Below are positions 2-8,168 of a DNA stretch of 42,624 nt, one piece after another. The notes beneath the pieces were generated by a model. That model was not told the origin of the DNA. It was given only the letters and a program-made list of their open reading frames with translations, and ran no database searches. Made by a program: the position numbers and the translations under genes. The DNA comes from Candidatus Doudnabacteria bacterium RIFCSPHIGHO2_02_FULL_43_13b (GTDB lineage: Bacteria > Patescibacteriota > Doudnabacteria > UBA920 > O2-02-FULL-48-8), in the NCBI GenBank assembly GCA_001777655.1, contig MFER01000001.1, positions 1-42,624 of the forward strand. The letters run 5' to 3'. How positions within the stretch are numbered: position 1 is the first letter of the stretch; the number at the start of each line of letters is the position of its first letter.

Positions 2-1087
2 GACGAAATAAAGTTTCCCATCGATGGTGGTGATGTTGCCTCCTTCCGGCGGAAAGGCAAAGTTGGTGTGATAAATCGGAACCAGGCAATGCTCGGGATA
101 GGTTGTAGTTGGGGGAATGGGAGCTGGGGATAGGGGAACTGACGGAGGAAGAGTTGGGCTTGGAGTACTTATAGTCCGGATCGGGAGACCGTGGCCAGAA
201 AGGGCAATTATTGCATAAGCCGTAACTAATCCAGATCCACTGGTATCGGTTGGTCGCCATTTGAATGAACCATCTGGGAGTTGTAAATTTTCCAAAAAAC
301 TTTTGGCATTAGCGGGGACTGATTGACCGGCTGAGATTAAGCCTGAAATGACCCAGGCTGTGGACGCGCCATCCGCCGCAAGGCCTGGTGAAAAACCGTA
401 GCCCCCTGATGAATCTTGGGATTGTTGTAAATATGAAAAAGCATTCGAGGGCGCGCCGCCGGTTATGCCAAGCGCGGCAATGGCCATGGCAGTCGTGTTT
501 GAATCCGAGCCGACACCCGGGGCAAAACCCCAGCCGCCATTCGAGTTTTGGTTATTTAAAATAAATTGTCGTGAAGCATTGATCGCCCTGTCACCAGCAC
601 TGGCTGATTTGAATGCTAGAATCCCGAAGATATCATCATTGAGCAAGCTTGGGTCGCCGATTTGCGAGCCATCGAACATGGATTCCAGTTTGGCAATAAA
701 ATTTTCACTGCCAAAATTAGTGGGATTTTCACCAATTGCGGTGATGGCCAAAATTCGTTTTTCATAATCCGTCGCGATATTTGAGTTTAGCGGTTGGGAT
801 AAAAACGATTGGCCGACGTTTTGGCCCAAAGCCGCATAAGCCATGATCGACCACTCTTCGTTTTGCGGAAGAGTGTTGACGGCTTGATTGAGATTTGCAG
901 CCGTTACTAAATGTCCTGAAACTAAAACAGCAGCGGATATCCCTGCAACCATCGCGAGGAGGCCGTATGGCCGACGCGGCGATCTAAATCTTGAAAAAGA
1001 TTGCTTCGCCCGCCCGATCCGACGATCAGTCGGGCGGGTCGTTTCCGCTCCTCGCAATGGTTTTAAAATAATTTTTCTATTCAACAT
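2..1087 (-). CDS. Secreted protein with terpene-cyclase/prenyltransferase-like alpha-alpha repeats and a Pro/Thr/Ser-rich linker; C-terminus runs off the window
   Basis: Open minus frame from ATG at 1087 to the window edge (missing from the ORF track because it has no stop). Manual translation gives ...LNNQNSNGGWGFAPGVGSDSNTTAMAIAALGITGG...YLQQSQDSSGGYGFSPGLAADGASTAWVISGLISAG...FLENLQLPDGSFKWRPTDTSGSGLVTAYAIIAL...STPSPTLPPSVPLSPAPIPPTTTYPEHC; repeated QxxxGG(W/Y)GF motifs and a hydrophobic N-terminal segment. Confidence 0.75.
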   Translation of the reverse strand, partial: MLNRKIILKPLRGAETTRPTDRRIGRAKQSFSRFRSPRRPYGLLAMVAGISAAVLVSGHLVTAANLNQAVNTLPQNEEWSIMAYAALGQNVGQSFLSQPLNSNIATDYEKRILAITAIGENPTNFGSENFIAKLESMFDGSQIGDPSLLNDDIFGILAFKSASAGDRAINASRQFILNNQNSNGGWGFAPGVGSDSNTTAMAIAALGITGGAPSNAFSYLQQSQDSSGGYGFSPGLAADGASTAWVISGLISAGQSVPANAKSFLENLQLPDGSFKWRPTDTSGSGLVTAYAIIALSGHGLPIRTISTPSPTLPPSVPLSPAPIPPTTTYPEHCLVPIYHTNFAFPPEGGNITTIDGKLYFV

Positions 1088-1159
1088 GAAAAGTAATTAG
1101 TAAAGAGTAATAAGTAATAAGAAGACGAGAAGCGGAGGAGGGGACCCTCCGCTTCCGAA

Positions 1160-1495
1160 TCAGAGACCGCGAACGATCAGACGGGCGTCGTTGGAGACTG
1201 GAATGGCTGAAACATCGATTGTCGGAGCAGTCACCGGTCCGATCGCGACTGGTTGGTCGTTGACGAAAAAATTCCAGTTGATGCCGCCTTGGATCGCAAT
1301 CCGGGCGGCGCCGTCGCTGCCGAACGCAACTCGTTGGGCGCTGATAAAGCCCGCCGAGCGGACTCGCTCCAACAGACTGCTGAAGGTGACTACAGGCTCA
1401 CTCGGTGTCGTGGGCAAGGGTTGAGCGCAGCCACCGACGAGAAGCAGCTCGACTCCGTTGATACAAACTAATCGCAAGGCTTGTCGTCGATTCAC
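1160..1495 (-). CDS. Small predicted lipoprotein, DUF4430/transcobalamin beta-domain-like
   Basis: GTG start at 1495 preceded by AAGGAGG (spacing about 6); signal peptide with lipobox-like LLLVGGC; mature part TFSSLLERVRSAGF...GINWNFFVNDQPVAIG...DARLIVRGL resembles the S-LL-x-x-x...G-x-x-W-x-x-x-VN-G pattern of DUF4430. Confidence 0.6.
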   Translation of the reverse strand: MNRRQALRLVCINGVELLLVGGCAQPLPTTPSEPVVTFSSLLERVRSAGFISAQRVAFGSDGAARIAIQGGINWNFFVNDQPVAIGPVTAPTIDVSAIPVSNDARLIVRGL

Positions 1496-1568
1496 GATCA
1501 TCCTCCTTGGATGTAGACTCCGACGCCGCTTCGCGGGTCGGAGTAATTTTTCGCTTTCGCGAAAAATT

Positions 1569-1590
1569 AAAAAACACCTCTTCCGAGGTG
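1569..1590 (-). terminator. Intrinsic terminator (putative riboswitch expression platform)
   Basis: Minus strand CACCTC-GGAA-GAGGTG followed by TTTTTT, between the riboswitch aptamer and the lipoprotein gene. Confidence 0.75.
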
Positions 1591-1619
1591 ACGACCCCGA
1601 CGTTTTCAGTCGGGGCAAG

Positions 1620-1735
1620 AAAAATCCTGCTCGGGAGATGGCTCTAATTAGCGATCTGACTACCCAGTTGCCTGGGATTACAGTTGCGGCACAGTGCCGG
1701 AATCTTACCGGACTTCCCTAAATAGAACTTTTAGA
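1620..1735 (-). promoter_or_regulatory. Cobalamin riboswitch-like aptamer
   Basis: Minus strand AGGGAAGTCCGGTAAGATTCCGGCACTGTGCCGCAACTGTAATCCCAGGCAACTGGGTAGTCAGATCGC matches the conserved GGGAA-xxx-GGTxA-x-ATxCC-xxGC-xG-xxCCGCAACTGTAA...AGTCAGA core of cobalamin riboswitches. Confidence 0.83.
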
Positions 1736-1757
1736 AATTGGCGAGGAACGTAAATCT

Positions 1758-1786
1758 ATCTTAATCTTTGGGATAAAAAGTGTCAA
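1758..1786 (-). promoter_or_regulatory. Sigma70-type promoter for the riboswitch transcript
   Basis: Minus strand TTGACA (1786-1781), 17 nt spacer, TAAGAT (1763-1758). Confidence 0.7.
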
Positions 1787-1805
1787 GCAACTGCTCACCG
1801 TTCAC

Positions 1806-8002: not shown

Positions 8003-8039
8003 ATTGCGGGTGAGGGAAGACATAGGATGTTATATAACC

Positions 8040-8168
8040 ATCGCGAGCGAGCAAAGCGAGCGTGGCGATCTTAATTAAGATTGCTTCGCCCGCCCGATCC
8101 GACGATCAGTCGGGCGGGTCGTCCCGCCAAGGTGGTTCTTGAGTAAACTCTCGGCCTCCTCGCAATGG
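8040..8168. repeat. Dispersed palindromic repeat (family A), intergenic copy upstream of argS
   Basis: Shares agattgcttcgcccgcccgatccgacgatcagtcgggcgggtcgt exactly with the copy near 1000-1043. Confidence 0.8.

Follow-up and report, generated by a model that had tools for sequence, protein, structure and literature searches.

The window, meaning the whole stretch of DNA that was analysed, is the entire contig C1 (42,624 bases) of a genome of 776,513 bases in 17 contigs, which is 99.7% complete and has Candidatus Doudnabacteria, of the Patescibacteria, as its closest named kin. Near its first position the minus strand carries, in the direction of transcription, a promoter-like element, a cobalamin riboswitch aptamer, an intrinsic terminator, a gene for a small lipoprotein and the 5' part of a gene for a secreted alpha/alpha toroid (TC) protein (Table 1). 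An earlier note on this DNA had named the promoter, a cobalamin-riboswitch core and the terminator; all three are present, and the riboswitch is now borne out by an Rfam covariance model.

Table 1. Features of the putative B12 locus, with positions in the window unless a locus handle is given.
Feature	Position	Strand	Remark
sigma-70-like promoter TTGACA-17-TAAGAT	1758..1786	-	10/12 matches; consensus match only
AdoCbl-II cobalamin riboswitch aptamer RF01689	1641..1737	-	38.0 bits, E 1.3e-5
CCCGAGCAGG box, candidate antiterminator strand	1626..1635	-	kept in 6/6 close genomes, just 3' of aptamer
intrinsic terminator CACCTC-GGAA-GAGGTG + T6	1575..1590	-	seen in sequence
small lipoprotein, 111 aa, starts NRR, lipobox Cys23	1160..1495	-	no family assigned
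secreted TC (alpha/alpha toroid) protein, 5' part	2..952	-	likely ATG 952; frame open from 1087
first CxVPxxHTNFxFPPEGG repeat unit, assembly break point	2..94	-	C1 end / C17 start repeat
DUF6580 loci with DUF4430 or TC neighbours	L065-L089; L124-L128		

Gene families were sought singly across the source genome rather than by whole-genome annotation, and the locus was compared in a set of six close genomes: the source genome itself, G003, G004, G008, G009 and G012, the sequence of G009 stopping just inside the TC gene. The RF01689 match in the window exceeds the gathering score of the model, 36.5 bits, by only 1.5 bits. It is the sole match to this model in its own genome, where RF00174 gives none, and at the equivalent place the model scores 43.7 bits in G004 and 53.3 bits in G008. 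The aptamer core GCCGCAAC[CT]GTA also lies 5' of the same gene pair in each of the five relatives, and a terminator hairpin is found at the matching site in five relatives, as an expression platform 3' of the aptamer. The CCCGAGCAGG box is complementary to this terminator along its 5' arm and loop. When the pairing was compared with shuffled sequences in the six close genomes, it was strong in G003, G004 and G012, where none of 500 shuffles equalled it, and weak in the window (29/500 shuffles equal), G008 (31/500) and G009 (47/500). The CCCGAGCAGG box would thus pair as an antiterminator, with ligand binding favouring the terminator.

A probable structured non-coding RNA is divergent from the B12 operon, at 1836-2115 on the plus strand (core about 1930-1996). 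In G003, G004, G008, G009 and G011 this core, about 67 bases long, recurs upstream of the riboswitch with 83-97% identity, while the proteins are far less alike. It is preceded by a promoter-like TAGACA-17-TATAAT (1806-1834) and followed by a conserved terminator-like GATTAGG-TTCTCTCG-CCTAATC-T5. The predicted hairpin has 22 pairs, with zero double-sided covariation and zero Rfam matches.

The lipoprotein gene has a GTG start at 1495, preceded by AAGGAGG at 1508-1502, and a stop that ends at 1160; a hydrophobic stretch precedes Cys23 of the product. Codon positions 1 and 2 are better conserved than position 3, third-codon GC is 0.62 as against 0.44 in the TC gene, and clear matches within the order occur solely at the B12 locus, in six genomes. 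This looks like a real, fast-evolving gene tied to the riboswitch-TC locus. The earlier note had called the product a DUF4430-like lipoprotein. The small lipoprotein stands, but the likeness to DUF4430 was not established by Pfam, NCBIfam, hhalign, AlphaFold or Foldseek: the window protein has zero Pfam matches, PF14478 for DUF4430 included, and zero NCBIfam matches, the structure model is of poor quality, and profile comparison of the Doudnabacteria group with DUF4430 gives a probability of 0.5%, with 4 of 197 shuffles as good. The same comparison with the Komeilibacteria counterpart (L047) gives 52%, with none of 200 shuffles as good, and this counterpart looks like an intermediate. A diverged DUF4430 is a reasonable idea for the lipoprotein because 19 more distant TC loci include 12 with a true small DUF4430 gene in its place.

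The TC protein has a signal peptide. Its frame is open from 1087, and a start there was set aside in favour of ATG 952, which is likelier because homologues begin at this ATG and because stop-containing repeat copies elsewhere in the genome match residues 13-49 of the long frame. This start leaves about 207 bases between the lipoprotein gene and the TC gene; the earlier note was right about a secreted frame but placed it at 70 bp. Dispersed repeat copies akin to the intergenic stretch between the two genes lie at 960-1087 and 8036-8128 in the window and at G000:C5:3094-3189.

Given that the window is a whole contig, the TC gene is cut by an assembly break. The end of C1 and the start of contig C17 share 73 identical bases with differing bases before them, so there are at least two copies of the CxVPxxHTNFxFPPEGG unit; in the G012 homologue two such units lie between the TC domain and DUF4430. 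The source genome has two copies of DUF4430, one of them in a 5'-open frame at the start of C17, and only a single TC gene and a single 5'-open DUF4430 frame were found in it. In the relatives with uncut genes (G003, G004, G008 and G012) TC domain, linker and DUF4430 form one protein. DUF4430 is recognized with E values of 1e-11 to 1e-14 in that protein and in the C17 continuation, which is where the earlier note had suggested looking for such a domain, beyond position 1. On the strength of the shared repeat, the single TC gene, the single 5'-open frame and the joined form in relatives, we infer a C1-C17 join by which the window gene would encode a TC domain, a linker, repeat units and DUF4430. 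The earlier note had placed both halves of a transcobalamin-like architecture under or next to B12 control; riboswitch and toroid are there, with DUF4430 in the probable continuation, but instead of two genes the halves very probably share one polypeptide, in the order TC, linker, DUF4430.

The CxVPxxHTNFxFPPEGG unit is also found, singly or as tandem copies, in small secreted proteins encoded in G010, G007 and G002 (L030 2962-3513, L032 6342-6731 and L033 6685-7368), whose genes lie no more than a few kilobases from the RNase P RNA gene. On C17 the end of DUF4430 is followed by an open frame of 249 residues (L003 609-1358, minus strand) that is rich in GC and, like the lipoprotein gene, looks GC-richer than its surroundings.

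The order of riboswitch core, terminator, lipoprotein beginning with RR or NRR, and TC protein is kept in all six close genomes, and a small protein with an RR signal lies between riboswitch and TC gene in several loci of Parcubacteria and Komeilibacteria. Of the 41 TC loci with usable upstream sequence, including those of Doudnabacteria and Parcubacteria, 26 are preceded on the same strand by an Rfam cobalamin-clan match at E <= 0.01 (9/17 + 6/9 + 11/15, where one species may recur between the second and third sets). The co-occurrence of homologues with B12 riboswitches that the earlier note proposed to check is thus found, and three models account for the matches: RF01689, RF01482 and RF00174. 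In five other members of the phylum a cobalamin riboswitch match is followed by three genes in a row, namely a small DUF4430 gene, a TC gene and DUF6580. In distant members of the phylum the domain order is reversed, with DUF4430 before the toroid (L105, L106, L108, L111-L115), and these loci usually have a separate small DUF4430 gene in front.

The fold of the TC-DUF4430 protein was approached through the G008 homologue of 381 residues, whose structure was predicted from a 24-sequence alignment with a pLDDT of 90.1. PF00432 is matched at 8e-10 in this homologue and at 1.3e-5, just under the cut-off, in the window protein. The model has a helical toroid region that is matched to both prenyltransferases and B12 carriers. 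When the model was compared with the PDB, the top 15 places all went to transcobalamin, intrinsic factor or haptocorrin (E 1.4e-11 to 6e-9), in alignments that span both domains, with prenyltransferases and cyclases behind them at about 1e-6. The transcobalamin-like fold anticipated in the earlier note is therefore supported, in a relative, by the top-ranking PDB matches. Over both domains Foldseek gives an rmsd of about 21 A, with a TM of 0.4, so the model has its domains oriented otherwise than in the closed form with bound B12. The DUF4430 domain profile matches transcobalamin-2 (E 3.7e-6), haptocorrin (0.002) and intrinsic factor (0.01). A plasmid collection gave only two distant toroid matches, at 28-29% identity.

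Genes for the use of B12 lie elsewhere in the source genome. Contig C12 carries in a row NrdJ (TIGR02504, 584.6 bits against a cut-off of 400), CobA/BtuR (PF02572, E 3e-59), a membrane-anchored DUF4430 protein and DUF6580. Wider surveys of EcfT/CbiQ, CbiC and NrdJ covered 60 genomes: NrdJ was found in 51, the corrin synthesis marker CbiC in none and EcfT/CbiQ (PF02361) in none, with a positive control in the search for the last. FecCD (PF01032) was not found in the source genome, again with a positive control. Lacking CbiC, EcfT and FecCD, the genome looks like that of a B12 auxotroph without known importers, and the simplest reading is that of an auxotroph scavenging B12 for ribonucleotide reduction. 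The earlier note had suspected an auxotrophic cell and had pointed to B12-dependent enzymes and to BtuFCD or ECF genes as things to look for in the genome; NrdJ and CobA agree with the suspicion, while neither EcfT nor FecCD turned up.

At all 25 DUF6580 loci inspected a DUF4430 gene lies directly upstream, CobA being near in 19 of them, and DUF6580 follows the TC gene in five riboswitch operons. DUF6580, which has zero sequence matches in the PDB, is on this gene context a candidate B12 permease family. In the literature searched, which leaves out most subscription journals, no papers were found on DUF6580, on cobalamin riboswitches in Patescibacteria, or joining Candidate Phyla Radiation, vitamin B12 and ribonucleotide reductase.

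From the computed elements, namely the riboswitch, the gene order, the domains, the fold of the relative, NrdJ, CobA and the absence of the importers searched for, the locus is read with good confidence as a B12-scavenging module with a secreted protein of transcobalamin architecture that is predicted to bind B12. When adenosylcobalamin is scarce, the riboswitch would let transcription through the terminator. Readthrough would yield the small surface lipoprotein and the secreted protein of toroid, Pro-rich linker with FPPEGG units, and DUF4430 beta-grasp domain. As in transcobalamin and intrinsic factor, a single B12 molecule may then be enclosed between the toroid and DUF4430 and carried to the membrane, the lipoprotein perhaps acting as partner or anchor. 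There two proteins encoded on C12, the DUF4430 protein with its membrane anchor and the small membrane protein DUF6580, could take B12 in, to be adenosylated by CobA, the product being used by NrdJ, a B12-dependent ribonucleotide reductase. When adenosylcobalamin is plentiful, the aptamer would bind it and the terminator would form. The bolder proposal that Patescibacteria have a full B12 uptake route unlike known ones, leading from a riboswitch-controlled transcobalamin-like binder through small DUF4430 proteins to DUF6580 as a solitary permease without an ATPase module and on to CobA and NrdJ, is a tentative one and falls a little short of an even chance.

The window gene could instead have decayed to a relic ending close to the edge of the contig, the DUF4430 fragment on C17 being a separate gene. 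The contig does break within the TC gene, C17 opens with low-complexity ATTACTAATTACT sequence, and the long ORF start sits in repeat DNA. However, the frame is free of stops and, against relatives, its codon positions 1 and 2 are better conserved than position 3; the two contigs end in the same repeat, the genome offers one TC gene for one 5'-open DUF4430 frame, and relatives have the joined form. Decay is thus highly improbable. An intact TC protein might still be an isoprenoid enzyme of the squalene-hopene-cyclase or prenyltransferase type, with an incidental riboswitch, and cyclases do top the sequence searches (7xqz 4e-11 and 2sqc 6e-7 with the window protein, 2sqc 4e-28 with the family profile). 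These matches span part of the toroid only, whereas over both domains the B12 carriers outrank the cyclases. The fusion of the toroid to DUF4430, the signal peptide, the recurring riboswitch linkage and the absence of the squalene-hopene cyclase motif DxDD from the window protein, as read from its sequence, likewise make an enzyme of this kind very unlikely.

The ligand might also be another cobalt compound, such as cobalt ion, cobinamide or other corrinoid precursors, or a different tetrapyrrole, with the riboswitch sensing only the end product. Riboswitches sense product rather than substrate, and CobA-type enzymes adenosylate incomplete corrinoids too. The possibility that some such proteins bind B12 precursors or other ligands was allowed by Burroughs et al. 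2007 (PMC1796856). The fold, however, matches carriers of complete cobalamin, and given that CbiC is absent from all 60 genomes, cobalt alone would be useless for B12. Capture of another compound is therefore considered unlikely, although it is given more weight than decay or an isoprenoid enzyme. The B12-scavenging module thus remains the preferred reading. Most of these very small bacteria carry NrdJ, seem unable to make B12 and are without the importers searched for, and the toroid-DUF4430/DUF6580 module is a concrete candidate for how they obtain B12, with DUF6580 singled out as a possible permease.

Several known systems can be set beside this one. In Bacteroides, BtuG and DUF4465 are described as surface proteins that capture B12 (PMC6143338, PMC13398666); they belong to other domain families and act with a TonB-dependent outer-membrane transporter, whereas the candidate binder here is the toroid-DUF4430 protein. 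BtuM (PMC6072759) is a solitary, S-component-like small membrane protein for which B12 import without an ECF module was proposed, in an organism without EcfT. DUF6580 resembles it by description, both being small membrane proteins without EcfT, but is paired with DUF4430 proteins.

Burroughs et al. 2007 (PMC1796856) described bacterial fusions of the toroid with SLBB, mostly in bacteria without key B12 synthesis enzymes, and predicted them to be B12 scavengers, often paired with a second extracellular SLBB protein. Those fusions were found mainly in low-GC Gram-positives, with CbiO/CbiQ genes, and riboswitches were not mentioned; here the bacteria are Patescibacteria, EcfT/CbiQ is found in 0 of 60 genomes, DUF6580 is part of several operons and a cobalamin riboswitch stands at the head. 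Bacterial toroid-DUF4430 fusions and their B12 role were therefore already predicted in 2007, and the present locus adds to them the phylum, a cobalamin riboswitch, DUF6580 instead of CbiQ and an uncharacterised lipoprotein. The riboswitch linkage lends support to the B12 binding that was predicted in 2007 for bacterial toroid-DUF4430 proteins.

The comparison also bears on the origin of the animal B12 carriers. Transcobalamin, intrinsic factor and haptocorrin share with the protein described here secretion, an N-terminal alpha/alpha toroid with a C-terminal DUF4430 beta-grasp domain and, within this beta domain, the conserved positions G, W and G(A)xxY, and they are the best PDB fold matches of a relative. 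The lineage of the window differs from them in being bacterial and in having the two domains joined by a long Pro-rich linker that contains FPPEGG units, and its locus in the B12 riboswitch control and the lipoprotein gene in front.
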